Below are positions 567 to 12,777 of a DNA stretch of 36,537 bases, piece after piece. Source of the DNA: Anaerolineales bacterium (GTDB taxonomy: Bacteria; Chloroflexota; Anaerolineae; Anaerolineales; Villigracilaceae); the NCBI GenBank assembly GCA_022865905.1, contig JALHUM010000123.1, positions 1 through 36,537 on the forward strand, written 5' to 3'. Under the pieces are notes generated by a model. It ran no database searches and had not been told where the DNA came from. It saw only the letters and a program-made list of their open reading frames with translations. How positions within the stretch are numbered: position 1 is the stretch's first letter; every line of letters starts with the position of its first letter. The translations under genes were made by a program, and so were the position numbers.

Positions 567-2672
567 ATGAGCGCCTCTGGTTACATAATTGTCGTTCTCG
601 TTCTTGCAGTCGCAATTGCCGGTGCGATTGGTTACTTGTTGCTTGCTAACAAAAAAAGAGGGCGCAGTTTAATGGGTGAAAAGCCGGAGATACAGAAGGG
701 TGAATCTACAAAACCATTGGCAGAAACTGAGAGACAATCAATTGAGGAAGCACACACGCACTAAGCGGTTGGGGAAATAACACAAGAGGCCAAAGAAGCG
801 CCCTCGGTTAGCGAGGTCGAAGGGTTACCGGATACTCCAGAAGAAATTCAGAGGGTAACACCACCCAAGAGAGGAGGAAGAACTCATCGAAACGAAGGGG
901 AAAAATCGCAAACGCGCGAAGGAAGTCCTCACCATCCGAAACCCGAGATTGTTTGTTGGGAAAAGGGGCGAGAATGGTTTTTAGGTATAGAAGTTCCTGA
1001 AGAACTTTGTAAGAGCGGTGAGGTGGGGATAATGCAAGACTCTTTACGATTGGAGCGGGATACATCGCGAACAAATTGCTGGTGCCTCACCCATGCTTTT
1101 GGTAAGTTAACCGTAAGTACGGTAGAAGACCCTATCGTTTTGGGCAAAGAGGGTGAAAGCTATCTCTTGTTCAAACTTAGTGGGGAAAATCGAAGAGAGG
1201 GCCGTCTTGTGACATCACCATCTTCCGGGGAATATCTCGTGGTCGTCCCTGCTAATTGGAAAATTTCACACCAAATCTCTGTTTCCTCTGAACAAATCGA
1301 CATGGAATCGTACCAGGCTTGCTGGCATGTTTTTGACACAACAGATAACAAAAAAATGGTTTTCTCCACTCCCAAAGGTGAGAAGAATATCCATTCCAAA
1401 TCCCCCCGATTTCGGATGATTGGTCCAAGTCTGAATGACGCAAGTTATATAGGGCCTCTCTTCGTCGAGAATCCTCCCCAAATCGGCACCCACGACATTA
1501 CAGATTGGAATGAGGTCGGAACGATCATCATCGGCGAAATTGGAGAAAGCCGATGGAGATCAGAAGTTCCTCTGACATTGGAAATTGCCATCCAAACTTT
1601 ACCTCCAGAAGCATTGGAGAGAGGAAGCGGATGGTATTTTCTAAGGTTCTATGACCAACATGACGATTTGATGGAAAGCCTCGATTTCAGATATGTCCGC
1701 GGCTTGAAAAAGATCAAAATGCCTCGTCCTCAGCCGTTTCCTCTTGAAGCGGGGCATGAGCTGACGTGTGTAGAAATTTTTCACGACCCCGAATGTACTT
1801 TCGAATCCGCTGATACGCTTTCAACTGATATTCGCATTGAACGTACAAACACTGGAACGGCATTATCTATCCCCCCGAATCCTGCATGCGACAAAACACG
1901 CTGGCGAATCAGTTGTGGTTCTGGCGCTAAAGTTAATATAACCATCTTGGTTGAAAGAATCTGGTGGAACATCGGAACCAAAATTGAAATACCATCTGCT
2001 TGGAAAGATCGGTTTGAGCCATTACCGAAAGATAGTTTTTCGGCCACATCCTATATTACATTATGGCTACGATTTCCTGCTCAACGCTGGGTCAAGAAAG
2101 TCGCAGTTGGTTTCCTGAGAGACCAAGCAAGAGAGTATCAAGTGGCCGTTATGGAGCAAACAGTCTGCATTCCCTTGCGCGAATTCGAGGTAAGGGACTT
2201 GCATCGCGACCATTTTCTACGGGTATGGCTTGAGCGTGGCGGAAAACAACATGAAGGTATAGTTGCGGTTGTTGCAGGTTTGCGCCCAGACTGGATAGGA
2301 TATGGGAGAAAGAAATCCGCTATAGCCGTAGCAATGATGCGTAAAGGCACTGGTGCGATGGAGATTAATGGATTCCCACTGACGGAATATTTCCAAAGAG
2401 CTCCATCTGAGGCACAACTCTTTTGGCGGCGTTTGCACGAACTCGAGCCAATACCTGCCATACTTTCGCAATTAGATGTTTCTCTTCGAGTAAGGGGAAG
2501 TAGTCCAAAAACAAAACGCCAATTGATGGCTGTTGCACATGCACTGGCTCATGCGCTCACGAACTACAAACCCGAACTGACTTCAATGCTGAAACGGGAA
2601 GGATTTGGAGGTGCGAGAGTCTCAAAATCAGCCTGTTTAGGCAAGGAGGGGTTGCTGAATGAATCCGATTGA
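567..2672 (+). pseudogene. N-terminally membrane-anchored protein with C-terminal ribosomal protein uS9-like domain; interrupted by one in-frame TAA (762-764)
   Basis: ORFs 567..764 and 1023..2672 are in the same frame. The gap 765-1022 is stop-free and reads AVGEITQEAKEAPSVSEVEGLPDTPEEIQRVTPPKRGGRTHRNEGEKSQTREGSPHHPKPEIVCWEKGREWFLGIEVPEELCKSGE. N-terminal TM segment GYIIVVLVLAVAIAGAIGYLLL. May be a pseudogene, a readthrough gene, or a shorter gene starting at GTG 1023. Confidence 0.65.
2289..2669 (+). other. uS9-like domain (Ribosomal_S9 type) within the preceding CDS
   Basis: DWIGYGRKKSAIAVAMMRKGTGAMEINGFPLTEYFQR...LDVSLRVRGSSPKTKRQLMAVAHALAHALTNYKPELTSMLKREGF follows the uS9 pattern GRRKs.ARV..GxGxxxINxxxLxxYFxR...LDxxxxVxGG...A.xHGIxRAL....LR..LKxxGF; the SKR tail is absent. 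Confidence 0.7.
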
Positions 2673-5600
2673 ACTGGCGCAGAACATTGAAAAAAACTAT
2701 CGCCAATACTTGCAGACCACTTTCTATTTCAAAGATAAAGAACTCCGCGAGTCTTTCGAGAGCGCGTTGATCTCTGGACGCCTAAGCAAAGGCCCGTATC
2801 TCGAAGCAACTCCAATCTTCAAGCGGACGCAAATGACTCGCGAGTTGTTTCCAGAATTGTTGGGGTTTCAACCAGATGAAGGATTCTTGAAAGCGACAGA
2901 CAAGCATCTTTATAAACATCAAGAAGAAGCAATTCGACGCGTAGACCAGGGGCGCAATGTTGTTGTTTCAACTGGAACAGGGAGTGGAAAGACCGAGGCC
3001 TTTCTTTATCCCATCCTTCTGCACCTGTATCGAGAATTTCATGCGAACCAATTATGCCCAGGCGTGAGAGCATTGATCCTTTACCCTATGAACGCGCTGG
3101 CAAACGATCAGCGGGAGAGGCTTGCGGGACAACCCGATAAATACACACAACCAGGAATCTTGTGGACACTTCAACAAGAGCAATCCCTATTCAATTTCAA
3201 GTTTGGACAATACATCGGCGAAACACCAAACGACGAGGGAGATCGAAGACGGCATGGTAATGCTCATGAAGAGCGTCGCTTGCCAGGGGAGTATATTTTC
3301 CGAGAGGAAATGCGAGCAACGCCACCACATGTCCTTCTCACCAATTACTCTATGCTTGAATATCTATTATTGCGACCTGACGATAGTCCCTTGTTTGATA
3401 ATGCGCGTTGGTGGACGTATTTAGTTTTGGATGAGGCACATCAGTATCGCGGCTCACGCGGTATCGAAATGGCAATGCTAATCAGACGCTTAAAACAAAG
3501 ACTTAGAGAAGGTGGTAGAACTGCTCCCTTTCGTTGTATCGCCACGAGCGCAACACTTGGAAACGAGGAAGATAAGAAAACTGTCGCGGAATTTGCGTCA
3601 GACTTGTTTGGTGAGGAATTCCAGGAAGACGATGTGATTCTCGGTGATGTTGAACCAATCCCCCAAACAGGCCCCAACAGTCTTGATATTGCTGACTACA
3701 CTATACTCCAAGGCGCACTTCAGGGAAACGGCGAGTCAAAGGCTCACTTGATCGAGGTGGCAATAAAACTTGGAGCATCTCTCGAAAACGATGTGGATTT
3801 ACCCAAACTCACTGGAGGGCTTCTGAAAAAGGATTATCGGACTTGGTTATTACGAAACAAAGTCGCTGGTAATCCCTGCGCTGTACAGGAAGTTGCCGAC
3901 TACGTTTTTAATAACATTCCAACCGAAGAACGTGTAGGCGCATTGTCGAAACTTGTCGAACTCTTGATGAAAGCAAGAGATCCAGACTCAAGTGCCCCTC
4001 TCTTATCATCACGTTACCACGTTTTCCTCAGGTCACTGGAGGGCGCTTTTGTCTCCTATGATTGGCCTAATAAAAGGGTCGTTCTTGAGCGAAAAAATGA
4101 AGAGGGCAAAGGTATGGCTTTTGAGATTGCCCTGTGCCGCGAGTGTGGACAGCATTATTTTGTGGGAACGAAAAACTTCAAAGGAGGGAAACTATTGGAG
4201 GCAAATCGCGACCCCGGTCATGACAATTTTGGGGTCAGCTTCCTGCGCACTTTGAATGATGATGAAGATATCATTAATGATGAAGATGAAACAGAAGATA
4301 ACCGCGTAATTTTTCAACTGTGCGTGCAATGTGGCGAAGCGAGCACCGATAAGCCAACTTGTGGGCATGAAAACCACATACGCGTAGTGAGGGAATCTTC
4401 GCACGAGGATGATAGGGCAGATCAATTGAAGAGATGTGGGGCTTGTGGATACAACGCGTCAGGTCATGATCCCGTTCGTGAAATAATCTATGGCGCAGAT
4501 GGTCCCCATGCTGTGATCGCAACCACTTTATATCAAAACCTACCCGAAGGCAGAAAGAAAATATTGGCTTTTGCAGACGGACGACAGCAAGCCGCTTTCT
4601 TTGCTTGGTATTTGGGCAACACTTATGCAGACATTCTCAGTCGCAATCGAATTCATAAAATCTTGCACAGTTACGAAAGTTTTCCGGCGGTCGGCATCAA
4701 GCTAACGAGTTTGGCTCGTAAAGCATTTGCTGATTATAGTGATTCTTTCAGACAAAAAGCGTACGATGATCCTGATGAAATCCGAATCAATATCTGGCGT
4801 TCTCTCTATCGAGAATTGCTGACAGAGGAGCAACGTATATCTCTTGAGGGTGTTGGCTTGCTCCGCTGGTCAGTTGAATGGCCTGAATGGATTAAAGCCC
4901 CCGCAGTTTTTCTCGACCATCCTTGGTTCCTTAGTGAGTCAGAAGCATTCGATTTATTGTTTCTTCTCATAGATACCATGAGAGCTGATCGTGCCGTAGA
5001 ACTTCGTACCGAATCGGATGTTTCTCTACGTTGGAATGACCTCGGCGGGCAGTCAGCGCAGAGGCGTGTTACAAAAAGTGAAGAGGGAAGACTCAAGAGT
5101 TGGGAACGAAAATGGTGCGGGAAAACAGGAAGGCGAGCCCGTTTGCTTGCCAAGATACTTGAAAGAAATGGAACTCCAGAGACTGAAGCCGTGGAAAAAG
5201 CAATAAGTGCTTTGAGAAAGGTTTGGGATAGTTTAACGAAATGTGATGAAAACGCTCCATCATCCCAATAGCGTTTGTTAGCGATAATAGAGGGAGACAC
5301 TCGAAGGCTTAACCCTGAATGGCTACGAGTTTTCCCAATTACTGAGGACGATGTGCTATTCCAATGCAATACTTGTCGTCGTTTGCAAACCGTCTCAGTG
5401 AGAGGAATTTGTTCAAGGCATGGCTGTTCTGGCAAGCTTGAAGAAAAGCGATTGAGAGAAATTGAGCCTAACCACTATCGTCGTCTATATCAAGAAGATA
5501 TGCCAGCGTCCCTTATCGTTGAAGAACACACTGCTCAACTTGATCACGAAAAGGCGCGTGAATTTCAGCGGGACTTTCGAGAAGGTAAAATTCATGTTTT

Positions 5601-7350
5601 AAGTTGTTCAACCACTTTCGAATTGGGCGTTGATCTCGGAAATCTTGATACCGCTTTCTTGCGCAATGTACCACCTGAAATCTTTAACTACGCACAACGA
5701 GTAGGACGGGTAGGACGCCGCAGCGGGATTCCTGGGTTCGCCATTACTTATTGCGGACGCAATCCTCATGATCTCTATCATTTTATCGAACCTTTACAGA
5801 TGATCAAAGGAAAAATACAGCCTCCTGTGTTGAGTCTCAAGAATTACAAGATCATTTCCCGTCATGTGACTGCAACCGCTTTGTCAGCCTTTTTTCAAAA
5901 TCACAAAGAAAGATTCAAGACCGTTGAAAACCTTTGCGAAGACCTATCCAATCCAAAGTTTGTTTCCGATTTCGAGATTTTCCTTAATGCGCATCGAACT
6001 GAGTTGGAAAATTCATTGCGAACAATAATTCCGCAGGATATGTTTACCTCTCTAGGTTTGCATGACGGTACATGGATTCAAGCAATCGCGGGTGAAAACA
6101 GCAGAATATCTTATTCCGTAGACGAAGTCTCAAGTGATTATAAGAAAACAATAGCTCTTAAGGAAATGCTTTCAAAGGAAGAGAAATATGATTTAGCCAA
6201 TTGGGCAAAGAAACGCGCTGAAACTATCGCTGGAGATGATGTTCTCTCTTTTTTGTCGCGTAAGGCTGTAATCCCCAAATATGGTTTCCCAGTAGATGTT
6301 GTTGAACTGGACACTCAGAGGGTAAAAAGTAGCCAAGATGCATCCGAAGTTCTCCTCCAAAGAGATCTTACAATAGCGATTTCTGAATTTGCCCCCACGA
6401 GTTCCCTGATTGCCAACAAAAAGGTTTGGACCTCCTATGGCTTGAAAAAAGTCGCCGAACGGGAGTGGGATCGCTGGTGGTATGCAAGATGCCCCACACA
6501 CGCTCGCTTTGAACGGAAACGGTATGAGGGCGAAGAACGTCCGCCTTCTTTTGAGGGGTGCTGCCCCAAAATGAAAATCTACCAATATATTGAACCGAAG
6601 TTTGGCTTTGTAACAAGCCTAGAAAAACCAAAGGAACCAACAGGTCGCCCCATAAAGGTCTTCACGACGCGGCCTTATTTTGCAGGCTTCAAAGACAAAA
6701 AGGGCGAGGAAAAAGATTTCAACGCTGTCATTCTGACCACCGTCTCGCCTGGCTATATGGTTGTAGTTTGCGAGGGCCGCAGAGGTGAAGGCTTTTTCAT
6801 TTGTAAAGATTGTGGGGCAGGATTCCGAAATATTAAGGATTTTCGAAAAGAGCATGACACCCCTCAAGGCTATAAGTGTCCAGCTAGGCCCGAAACACTC
6901 CGACCGAGCGTATCACTCGGCCACGAGTTGGTAACTGATGTATTAAAAATCCAGTTCAGCCATCCCCCTTCAGTACTCATAGAAGAACCAGGGTTTGCCT
7001 TTTCGCTTGCCTATGCAATGGTGGAAGGTGCAGCATACATTTTAGGAGTGCGACCGAATGATCTGAGTGCGACTGTCGCCTATGGCAGCGATGATTATCC
7101 TATACCACCGATAATTCTCTATGATAACGTGCCTGGTGGGGCAGGGCTTGTCGCACGGCTTGAGGATAAAAACACATTTCGAGATTGCCTAGAATCTGCG
7201 AAGAGAAGGTTGGGCGGTGCGTGCGGTTGTGGCGAAACTGATAGTTGTTACGGTTGTTTGAGAAGTTACAGAAACCAGTTCGCGCATCAGTACCTGCAAA
7301 GAGGACCAGTATTGCGCTACCTTGATGATATTCTGGCGAAATGGCTTTGA
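2659..7350 (+). pseudogene. DEAD/DEAH-box helicase with Zn-finger and C-terminal DUF1998-like region, interrupted by one in-frame TAG (5269-5271)
   Basis: ORFs 2659..5271 and 5275..7350 share a frame and are separated only by TAG. Motifs: Walker A STGTGSGKTEAFL, LVLDEAHQYRG, CIATSATL, ILAFADGRQQAAFF, then after the stop STTFELGVDLGNLDTAFLRNVPPEIFNYAQRVGRVGRRSG. CxxC pairs (CREC, CVQC, CGAC). C-terminal GGACGCGETDSCYGCLRSYRNQFAHQYLQRG is DUF1998-like. Start overlaps the upstream gene by 14 bp. Confidence 0.8.
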
Positions 7351-7502: not shown

Positions 7503-8876
7503 TTATGACTTCGCCACAACTTGCGGCAGTTCTTTCATGGCTTCCTTCACTGCTTCGGCAGGATAGGCGTAATCTTCCAACTGCCCGCGCAGGAAGGCCT
7601 GATACGCCCCCATGTCAAAGTGCCCATGACCCGACAGGTTGAACAGGATAACGCGCTTCTCGCCCTTGGCTTTGGCATCCAGAGCCTCGTCAATGGCGGC
7701 GCGAATGGCATGCGCTGATTCCGGTGCGGGAAGGATGCCCTCCGCCCGCGCAAAGGCTACCGCTGCCTCAAAGGTCGCCACCTGCGGCACGGCGATAGCA
7801 TCAATGTATCCGGCGTCGCAAAAGGCACTCAGGCTGGGAGCCATCCCATGGTAACGCAGACCGCCGGCATGGATGGACGGCGGCACGAAGGAGTGTCCAA
7901 GCGTATACATCTTGACGATAGGGGCCATCTTAGCCGTATCGCCAAAATCGAAGGCGTACACGCCTTTCGTCAGAGAGGGCGTGGCGGTCGGCTCGACGGC
8001 CACAAAACGTGTGTGCTTGCCCCCTTTCAGATTCTGACGCAGGAAGGGGTAGGCAAGCCCGGCATAATTCGATCCGCCGCCCACGCAGCCGATGACCACA
8101 TCCGGGTATTCCCCTGCCAGGTCCATCTGCTTGAGGGCTTCCTCGCCGATGACTGTCTGGTGCATCAGCACATGGTTCAGCACCGAGCCGAGGCTGTACT
8201 TCTTGGCTCCGCCGGAAGTCGCGGCGACTTCCACTGCCTCTGAGATGGCAATGCCCAGTGAACCGGGGCTTTCCGGATCTTTAGCTCGCAACGAGCGCCC
8301 GAACTGCGTCCGCTCCGTTGGGCTGGCGTAGACCTGCGCACCGTAGGTTTCCATCATGATGCGGCGGTAGGGTTTTTGGTCGTACGAGACACGCACCATG
8401 TACACTTCCAGGTCAAGGCCAAAGAAATTGCAGGCCAGCGCCAACGCTGAGCCCCATTGCCCCGCGCCGGTTTCGGTGGTCAGGGACTTGGTGCCGGCGG
8501 CTTTGTTGTAGAATGCCTGGGCGATGGCTGTATTCGGTTTGTGACTACCTGCCGGGGAGACGCTCTCGTTCTTGTAGTAAATATGAGCAGGCGTGCCCAG
8601 CGCCTGTTCCAGGCGGCGGGCGCGGTGTAACGGTGTGGGACGGTACAGCTTGTAGATTTCGCGCACCGGCTCAGGGATCTCGATGTAGCGCTCGGCGCTG
8701 ATTTCCTGCAGGATCAGTTCCATGGGGAAAAGCACCGAGAGGAAATCCGGTGTGACCGGCTCGAGGGTGGCCGGATGCAGCACTGGCGTGGGCGGAAGAG
8801 GACTGTCAGCCATCACGTTGTACCAGTATTTCGGCAGGTCGGTTTCGTTCAACAGAAAACGGGTTTGGTCAGACAT
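7503..8876 (-). CDS. trpB: TrpB-like pyridoxal-phosphate enzyme (tryptophan synthase beta, TrpB2 type)
   Basis: MSDQTRFLLNETDLPKYWYNVMADSP...YRPTPLHRARRLEQ...HIYYKNESVSPAGSHKPNTA...TETGAGQWGSALA...GCVGGGSNYAG. ATG at 8876 is preceded by an AAGGAG-type RBS and a Trp T-box. The upstream extension of the ORF track is repeat-derived. Confidence 0.9.
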   Translation of the reverse strand: MSDQTRFLLNETDLPKYWYNVMADSPLPPTPVLHPATLEPVTPDFLSVLFPMELILQEISAERYIEIPEPVREIYKLYRPTPLHRARRLEQALGTPAHIYYKNESVSPAGSHKPNTAIAQAFYNKAAGTKSLTTETGAGQWGSALALACNFFGLDLEVYMVRVSYDQKPYRRIMMETYGAQVYASPTERTQFGRSLRAKDPESPGSLGIAISEAVEVAATSGGAKKYSLGSVLNHVLMHQTVIGEEALKQMDLAGEYPDVVIGCVGGGSNYAGLAYPFLRQNLKGGKHTRFVAVEPTATPSLTKGVYAFDFGDTAKMAPIVKMYTLGHSFVPPSIHAGGLRYHGMAPSLSAFCDAGYIDAIAVPQVATFEAAVAFARAEGILPAPESAHAIRAAIDEALDAKAKGEKRVILFNLSGHGHFDMGAYQAFLRGQLEDYAYPAEAVKEAMKELPQVVAKS

Positions 8877-8893
8877 GGGAGACTCCTTGGGGT

Positions 8894-8930
8894 GGTAGAT
8901 TGGTAGATTAGTAGTTTGGTAAATTGGTAA
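8894..8930. repeat. 8-bp periodic degenerate tandem repeat in the trpB leader
   Basis: GGTAGATT GGTAGATT AGTAGTTT GGTAAATT GGTAA on the + strand. Confidence 0.8.
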
Positions 8931-9030
8931 CGCGCGAACGTATAAACGTTCAAATGCACAAACGCCACTACACCCTTCAAGGCGGATGCAAGGAAATAGC
9001 AAATTCGATTTGCAGATTCATTTAGACCTC

Positions 9031-9472
9031 CTCAAAAAATATAAAGCGTTCATCCCAAAAGGGACGAACGCTTTCGCATCCGTGGTGCCACCCAACTTAG
9101 GCTGCTTCCTTAAAAAAAGGATCCCCGTGTGATGCAACGGGGATAGAAGCCAGCCTCACTCTTCCTTAGTCGGTTGGTCACCTGGCCTTGTGGTCAAATA
9201 ATCCTTAATGGACTATCCGACAACGTGACCAATTGACCAAGTAACTAATAAGCCCAGATAACGGTGGCAACTTCCGGCACAGGCTACTTGATTAGTCAAG
9301 CAATTGTGTGGTCGTGTCGTCTTGACTATCAGACTTAGAGACCATTAGACTAAATCGTTCGCCCTGCAACTCCGAGGTCCATTCAGCGCCATCGTGCGGA
9401 CAGGATCTCACCTTTTCCTGCTCTCTGGGCCGCCGTAACAGGGCTTACTCGTCCTCATCAACGTTTTTCTAT
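9031..9472 (-). promoter_or_regulatory. T-box riboswitch (tRNA-Trp type) upstream of trpB
   Basis: Minus strand: conserved T-box GGGTGGCACCACGG (rc of 9080-9094); terminator hairpin GGGACGAACGCTTT/AAAGCGTTCATCCC (9043-9074) followed by TATTTTTT; specifier candidate GAATGGACC (TGG = rc of 9379-9381); -10 TATAAT = rc of 9479-9484. Confidence 0.88.
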
Positions 9473-11316: not shown

Positions 11317-12777
11317 ATGCCCATCCACTTTGGCACTGACGGCTGGCGTGCCGTCATCTCGGATACTTTCACGTTCAACAACCTACGTCTGCTGACCCAG
11401 GCCATCGCCGATGCGGTGGCCTCCGAGTATTGGGACAAGAGCGGCAACGGCAAGAATAAGCCCGACCTGCACAAGATGGTGGTCGGCTTCGACACGCGTT
11501 TCCTCTCGGATCGCTACGCCGGGGAAGTGGCGCGCGTCCTGGCCGCCAACGGGTTCACGGTCTACCTGGCCCAGTCCGACGCGCCGACGCCCGCCATCTC
11601 GTACGCGGTGTGTAATCTCAATGCCATCGCGGGCGTGATGATCACCGCTTCGCACAACGCCCCTCGCTATAACGGCGTGAAGCTCAAGTCGGCTTACGGG
11701 GGATCGGCGCTGCCCGAACAGTGCCGCCGGGTGGAGGTCTACATCAACGATAACGAGGAGCGGGCCAGGGGTCCGAATCTGATGGATTTCGACCAGGCGC
11801 GCCAGGCCGGTTTGATCCAGCGTTTCAACCCGCTGACGGCTTACTTCGACCACGTCCGCAAGTTGATCAACTGTGACATCATCGCCGAGAATCCGCAGCG
11901 CTTCGTGGTGGACTCGATGTACGGCTCCGGGCGCGGCGTCATCAAGACCTTTTTACACGGCACTGGCTGCGAGATAAGCGAGATCCGCGGCGAAATGAAC
12001 CCCGGCTTCGGGGGGATGCACCCCGAACCAATTGCCCGTTACCTCAGCCCGCTGGCTGGCGCGGTCAGCACTGGCATGGGCGATTTTGGCCTGGCCACGG
12101 ACGGCGACGCCGACCGCATCGGTGCGATGGACGGGCGCGGGACCTTCGTTGACCCGCACAAGATCATGGCCCTCTCCCTGCGCTACCTGGTCGAAAAGCG
12201 CGGCTGGAGCGGCGCGGTGGTGCGCACCGTCTCGACCACGCGCATGATTGACCGCCTGTGCAAGCGTTACGGTTTGAAACTCTACGAGACGCCAGTCGGC
12301 TTCAACCACATCGACGATTACATGCTGACCGAGGACGTGCTGATCGGCGGCGAGGAATCGGGCGGCATTTCATTCAAGGGACACATTCCCGAAGGCGATG
12401 GACCGATCATGGGACTGCTGCTGGTCGAGATGATCGCCGCCGCGCATAAGCCGCTGCACAGCCTGGTCGAAGAGCTTCTGGCGGAAGTCGGCCCGGCATT
12501 CTACGAGCGCACCGACTTGCGCCTGAGCCACCCGCTCGCCAAGGCCGAGATGACTGAGTACCTGACCAGGCAAGCCCCGGCCGGGATCGGCGGCCAGAAG
12601 GTGGTCGAGGTTGGCAACATTGACGGGGTCAAATACATCCTGGACGACGATTCCTGGCTGCTCATCCGGCCTTCCGGGACGGAACCAGTCTTGCGCGTCT
12701 ACGCCGAAGGCCGCGACATGAAAATGGTCAAAGCTTTGCTGGGTTACGGTGAAAAAGTCGCCGCGAGCGTGACGTAA
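11317..12777 (+). CDS. Phosphoglucomutase/phosphomannomutase family protein
   Basis: MPIHFGTDGWRAVI...GVMITASHNAPRYNGVK...LATDGDADRIGAMD...GGEESGGISFKGHIPEGDG...IRPSGTEPVLRVYAEG: full set of alpha-D-phosphohexomutase motifs. Confidence 0.93.
   Translation: MPIHFGTDGWRAVISDTFTFNNLRLLTQAIADAVASEYWDKSGNGKNKPDLHKMVVGFDTRFLSDRYAGEVARVLAANGFTVYLAQSDAPTPAISYAVCNLNAIAGVMITASHNAPRYNGVKLKSAYGGSALPEQCRRVEVYINDNEERARGPNLMDFDQARQAGLIQRFNPLTAYFDHVRKLINCDIIAENPQRFVVDSMYGSGRGVIKTFLHGTGCEISEIRGEMNPGFGGMHPEPIARYLSPLAGAVSTGMGDFGLATDGDADRIGAMDGRGTFVDPHKIMALSLRYLVEKRGWSGAVVRTVSTTRMIDRLCKRYGLKLYETPVGFNHIDDYMLTEDVLIGGEESGGISFKGHIPEGDGPIMGLLLVEMIAAAHKPLHSLVEELLAEVGPAFYERTDLRLSHPLAKAEMTEYLTRQAPAGIGGQKVVEVGNIDGVKYILDDDSWLLIRPSGTEPVLRVYAEGRDMKMVKALLGYGEKVAASVT

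Follow-up and report, generated by a model that had tools for sequence, protein, structure and literature searches.

The closest described relatives of the locus analysed here are systems with a YprA-family helicase. Druantia type III consists of DruH, which contains three Ig-like domains and has been proposed to be a sensor of phage proteins, and of DruE, which engages ssDNA-containing replication intermediates (PMC13192584). In a survey of YprA helicases, the Druantia III-like branch was found to be mostly without nucleases (PMC12458937). Our locus shares with Druantia type III the arrangement of two overlapping genes, with a large, sensor-like, Ig-like partner 5' of a DruE/YprA helicase. 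It differs in that the partner is unrelated to DruH in sequence and has a C-terminal module slot, and in that the helicase belongs to a separate clade and lacks a C-terminal nuclease. ARMADA, DISARM, Dpd and TALON likewise contain a YprA-family helicase with a DUF1998/MZB domain, but a conserved adjoining BrxHII-like helicase, PglX methylase or PLD/NERD nuclease is absent from our loci.

The locus lies in the window, that is, the whole stretch of 36,537 nucleotides analysed, which is a contig of an Anaerolineales bacterium from a fragmented assembly of 359 contigs. Its parts are as follows.

567..764, + strand: N-terminal anchor ORF of 65 aa, with a single transmembrane (TM) helix IIVVLVLAVAIAGAIGYLL and, after it, a basic stretch; it ends with TAA at 762-764 and is in the frame of the next part
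765..929, + strand: linker from anchor to core, with an open frame; ATG, GTG and TTG are absent in frame until 1023
930..2288, + strand: partner core of tandem Ig-like beta-sandwich domains, with the conserved GWYFLRFYD..LVESLDFR (24-row alignment, AlphaFold2 (AF2) model, Foldseek)
2289..2669, + strand: C-terminal uS9-like module (Pfam match 2304-2606; net charge +8, pI 10.0)
2659..5271, + strand: N-terminal half of a DruE/YprA-like helicase, with GTGSGKTE and DEAH (PADLOC DruE1, 288 bits; Pfam DEAD) and an in-frame TAG at 5269-5271
5275..7350, + strand: C-terminal half of the helicase, in the frame of the N-terminal half, with Helicase_C (PF00271) and the MrfA Zn-binding domain MZB (DUF1998-type, PF09369) (PADLOC DruE1, 291 bits)

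The helicase gene starts at 2659 and overlaps the end of the partner gene by 14 nt. DruE1 was the best PADLOC model for the helicase, with about 290 bits for each half in the window and 594-634 bits for the whole proteins of relatives. As in the YprA/DruE family, a DEAD core, Helicase_C and an MZB (DUF1998-type) domain are present in one protein, split by the TAG in the window, and no nuclease domain was found after the MZB domain in 5275..7350. The trees in this study contained 17-32 rows and had open forks. In the helicase tree, with references for Druantia I, II and III and ARMADA I identified by their annotated neighbours, 17 helicases of the system formed one clade (100/100) apart from the three type III rows, and also outside the Druantia I, Druantia II and ARMADA I references. 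We use the term new class with reserve and relative to the references of this tree; a frequent lack of nucleases is common to our system and the Druantia III-B branch (GIH50614.1; PMC12458937). The partner gave no match to DruH (STY4851/ECs_5259) with NCBIfam or PADLOC. An HMM of its core did not match the DruH proteins of three reference loci (L100, L102 and L105, E>=0.67), and there was no match to the other Druantia partner proteins tested. That the partner is DruH in disguise was ruled out at the sequence level.

Both genes are interrupted in the window. The partner frame is open back to 765, where the TAA at 762-764 separates it from the 65-aa anchor ORF (hydropathy maximum 2.90). Since the TM helix, linker and core are encoded by one ORF in relatives, the window most likely once had one gene that later acquired a nonsense codon. 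Initiation at 1023, giving a 549-aa ORF (1023-2672), would leave the core without its first conserved strand. In the helicase, the TAG falls at a variable linker position. Among the relatives, 14 have a single uninterrupted helicase ORF of 1486-1599 aa, one has a stop of its own at another site (L039) and one is cut by a contig end (L035). Programmed recoding at TAA 762 and TAG 5269 was considered and rejected; both stops lie in linkers, but relatives have no stop there and no other sign of recoding was seen. The two in-frame stops represent pseudogene decay or assembly error, and a split-gene state is unlikely. With one nonsense codon in each gene, the window copy may be decaying or inactive, unless these are assembly errors. 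We therefore refer functional statements to the family and not to the window copy. As for the membrane anchor described in the earlier note, it is present in relatives, whereas in the window it is cut off from the protein by the TAA.

The GC content of the cassette (46% versus 60% in the remaining window) marks it as foreign to its genome, and no copy was present among 60 close relatives. No convincing RNA element adjoins it; a long hairpin (acgaacccgtttcct...aggaaacgggttcgtt) lies 5' of the cassette at 200-265 and gave no Rfam match above threshold. On the minus strand, a T-box leader at 9057-9470 (92.8 bits versus a gathering score of 93, E 5e-21) lies upstream of a TrpB-like gene at 7503-9002.

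A query with the partner sequence N-terminal to the uS9 domain yielded homologues from other families in the same class. A profile scan of one genome from each of 85,462 species identified 27 loci in Chloroflexota, Bacteroidota, Acidobacteriota, Planctomycetota, WOR-3, Thermodesulfobacteriota and others. Further loci were obtained in additional genome searches, and most loci of the whole set come from metagenome assemblies; per genome search, 2-7 of 147-396 genomes were positive. The coupling to a helicase with a DUF1998/MZB domain, suggested previously from the window, proved strict, the helicase gene lying directly downstream of the partner in 23 of the 27 loci. Of the remaining four, three lie on contigs that stop at the partner gene, and the last has only a 99-aa remnant. 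A third conserved gene was not found in the seven loci with longer flanks that were compared, nor were partner copies found in phage, plasmid and viral collections. Neighbours in other genomes include several restriction or defence genes (Eco57I/MmeI methylases, BrxC-like, GmrSD, DUF4365 and NucS/YhcG-type nucleases).

All members share a core of ~440 residues. Its AF2 model displays tandem beta-sandwich domains, and its Foldseek hits with E 4e-9 to 1e-5 include tandem Ig proteins such as nectin and the titin I-band. The partner thus has an anchor at its N-terminus (one TM helix in most cases), a tandem Ig-like core and an exchangeable C-terminal module. Several relatives lack the TM helix (L046, L049, L051 and L052), and membrane location is therefore not essential to the family. 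The N-terminus is likewise modular, with an SMC-like ATPase tail in L049 (2-1688), a long coiled coil in L091 and an Mrr_N winged helix N-terminal to the core in L046 (residues 87-172). One member of the partner set matched LmuB models. Distant cores were also seen, in L079 and L082 following sigma-70 regions 3/4 and carrying an L13e-like tail, and in L080 and L081 following an SNF2 helicase; they form divergent pairs ~11 kb apart in two genomes (G937, G921) of the same phylum as the Acidobacteriota locus L042.

The C-terminal domain was then examined. The earlier note had proposed that 2289-2669 is uS9-like with the fold kept, and had named low-complexity basic composition as a possible cause of the resemblance. 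PF00380 (Pfam Ribosomal_S9) matched residues 428-528 of the 549-aa ORF, corresponding to 2304-2606, with 47.4 bits (E 3e-12; curated cut-off 22.5 bits), and the domain by itself with 51.4 bits. The NCBIfam model for 30S S9 (PRK00132) gave 47-51 bits for the domain, compared to the curated 112 for true S9. With an HMM built from 27 genuine uS9 proteins, the domain scored 52.7 bits and the best of 5,000 domain shuffles 11.1 bits, ruling out chance or composition as the cause. A profile of five fused domains matched 119 PDB sequences at E<=0.001 (best 5e-17), and all of the 60 matches listed were uS9/S16. The AF2 model of core and domain had a mean pLDDT of 85, with the uS9-like domain mostly at 75-91, and Foldseek aligned it to the uS9 of a 70S ribosome (8rdv_F) with a TM-score of 0.65 (target length), a probability of 1.0 and 29% identity over 107 columns. 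These results confirmed that the C-terminal domain is a true uS9 homologue.

The window genome encodes a separate uS9 (G000:C214, 138 bits), and the same was observed in all five of the other fusion-carrying genomes checked, where the separate protein scored far better. The fused domain is therefore not the ribosomal protein, and a displaced or second ribosomal S9 was ruled out by the genome having its own uS9. The fusion is present in five distinct loci from four phyla, one of them in a single-contig complete genome (AP024675.1), and is thus neither an assembly artefact nor an artefact of one genome. Viral contigs contained no free-standing uS9-like relatives, and those uS9 hits in phage and plasmid records that had annotation were ordinary rpsI.

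The module resembles ribosomal uS9 (RpsI) in its fold, in the order of its secondary structures and in most of the core hallmark positions. At least four of the five fused rows retain (E. coli numbering) G10, R11, K13, A17, G24, G26, N31, Y38 and F39, and also G69, Q75, A78, R85, A86 and G102; the hallmarks GRxK, N, YF, Q and RAL are among what is kept. On the other hand, the GGG loop after G69 is gone in all five rows. Nearly everything from position 104 onwards is lost, positions 104-109 being changed in five of five and tail residues 115-130 being absent or unaligned. The motif correspondences to uS9 named earlier, the replaced GGG loop and the missing SKR tail were all present as described. 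In the ribosome, the basic C-terminal tail of uS9 ends in Lys/Arg and reaches the P site, and its last Arg is believed to contact the initiator tRNA (PMC6344880). The module thus differs from RpsI in its fusion to an Ig-like protein and in the loss both of the GGG loop and of the tail from R106 onwards, and from a functional uS9 in lacking the basic Lys/Arg-ending tail and in not being the sole uS9 gene of its genome. The fused modules have gained a signature of their own (GS.P.T.RQ.KA..HA..RAL...LR.AGFGG) and are all basic (net +8 to +17, pI 10.0-11.3). Mean identity among the five proteins was 47.6% in the module and 40.4% in the core; being no less conserved than the core, the module is under selection. 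The retained fold and charge fit a nucleic-acid-binding domain that has left the ribosome, the binding itself being putative, and the charge could also be a mere inheritance from uS9 with no use.

The S9 end, taken earlier as the hallmark of the protein, is a real module, but it is only one of at least four types found in the C-terminal slot of the partner family, and most relatives end in zinc fingers.

C2H2-like zinc-finger array: the commonest form
uS9-like: the window, L033, L034, L040 and L042, with L043 as a near copy; each scores above the Pfam cut-off
ribosomal L13e-like (PF01294): L037 at 11456-11626 (31.5 bits, cut-off 24.9) and L038; weaker in L084, L088 and L089
orphan helical domain: the C-termini of L031, L035, L036, L039, L044, L045, L052 and L093

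The L13e-like module sits in the same slot of relatives, but corresponds to only ~40-70 residues of the 180-position L13e model and is absent from the window protein. The helical domain was modelled with a pLDDT of 78 and gave no Pfam or PDB match (best Foldseek E 2.1). As this type resembles no known fold, a nucleic-acid-binding nature is not evident for every module. The uS9-like modules group together as one clade (100/100), which a long branch separates from the 27 genuine uS9 proteins. The S9-ended cores do not, a constraint to one clade being rejected (p-AU 0.006), and the S9 end needs three changes on the core tree and three on the helicase tree. As the modules are one clade while the cores are not, the module has been exchanged between systems. 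The simplest reading of these sequences is a single capture of uS9, after which the module would have moved like a cassette between systems. The tail of the partner looks like a swappable recognition module.

Taken together, we consider it probable (about 0.62) that the two genes make up a horizontally acquired, defence-like system, in which a sensor-like partner works with a DruE/YprA helicase and a retired uS9 serves as a basic nucleic-acid recognition module. The anti-phage role is one that we infer from context and homology. By analogy with DruH/DruE, the core would be a sensor or scaffold and the module a nucleic-acid head that licenses the helicase. The Ig-like core, comparable to the three Ig-like domains of DruH, would sense an infection cue or scaffold a complex. 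The basic C-terminal module would bind nucleic acid, most likely structured or invading, as presumably do the zinc-finger arrays of relatives. Such binding would then position or license the helicase at phage DNA close to the membrane. RNA or DNA binding and ribosome mimicry by the module, both suggested in the earlier note, are putative; what bears on them is its basic charge and the module swap.

Alternatively, the C-terminal modules might be protein-interaction adaptors that bind either their cognate helicase or a protein of the phage, with the uS9 fold as a mere scaffold. The module lies at the end of the partner nearest the helicase gene, the helical module resembles nothing that binds nucleic acid, and the functional analogue DruH is thought to sense phage proteins (PMC13192584). 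However, helicases are not sorted by module type, as seen in the three changes on their tree, which makes a helicase-specific dock unlikely, and the uS9 modules all remain strongly basic. We regard adaptors as a doubtful explanation, though one to be kept in mind.

We also considered that the module still recognizes the ribosome or rRNA (30S precursors, rRNA), or decoys phage factors that bind uS9, so that the system senses an attack on translation. The presence of two ribosomal-protein families, uS9 and L13e, in one slot and the retention of the N-terminal GRxK loop, N31, YF, Q75 and RAL are in line with this. Nevertheless, the commonest module, the zinc-finger array, has no relation to the ribosome, the GGG loop and the entire C-terminal tail are lost, and a membrane-tethered, Ig-linked uS9 could hardly enter the 30S subunit. 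We find ribosome sensing unlikely, and the same holds for its broader form, in which prokaryotic immunity captured uS9 and L13e as swappable heads that report ribosome or rRNA state, or bait ribosome-targeting phage factors, and signal to a Druantia-like helicase.

A role of the pair in DNA repair or chromosome maintenance, as for MrfA/YprA, instead of defence is suggested by the repair branch of the YprA family (PMC12458937). The match of each helicase half to DruE defence models, the patchy distribution in the genome searches, the odd GC content, the defence-gene neighbours and the exchangeable recognition module all speak against this, and we judge it improbable. Chance, low complexity or accidental rpsI read-in in one metagenome-assembled genome, a suspicion that the stop codons and fragmented assembly of the window copy might raise, is refuted for the family by the shuffle control, the structural match to 8rdv_F and the single clade from five loci and four phyla, complete genome included, and its probability is negligible.

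In accordance with the earlier note, which took the architecture to be undescribed, we found no account of it in the literature searched, and the string 'ribosom' is absent from the YprA survey (PMC12458937). The YprA-helicase systems gain a distinct clade and a new family of partner proteins. Their recognition end proves to be modular, and some of its modules are ribosomal proteins. We know of no earlier report of a defence-type system in which ribosomal proteins act as exchangeable recognition domains. The natural series of swaps on one chassis (zinc finger, uS9, L13e and helical) makes the recognition target of the system directly testable.
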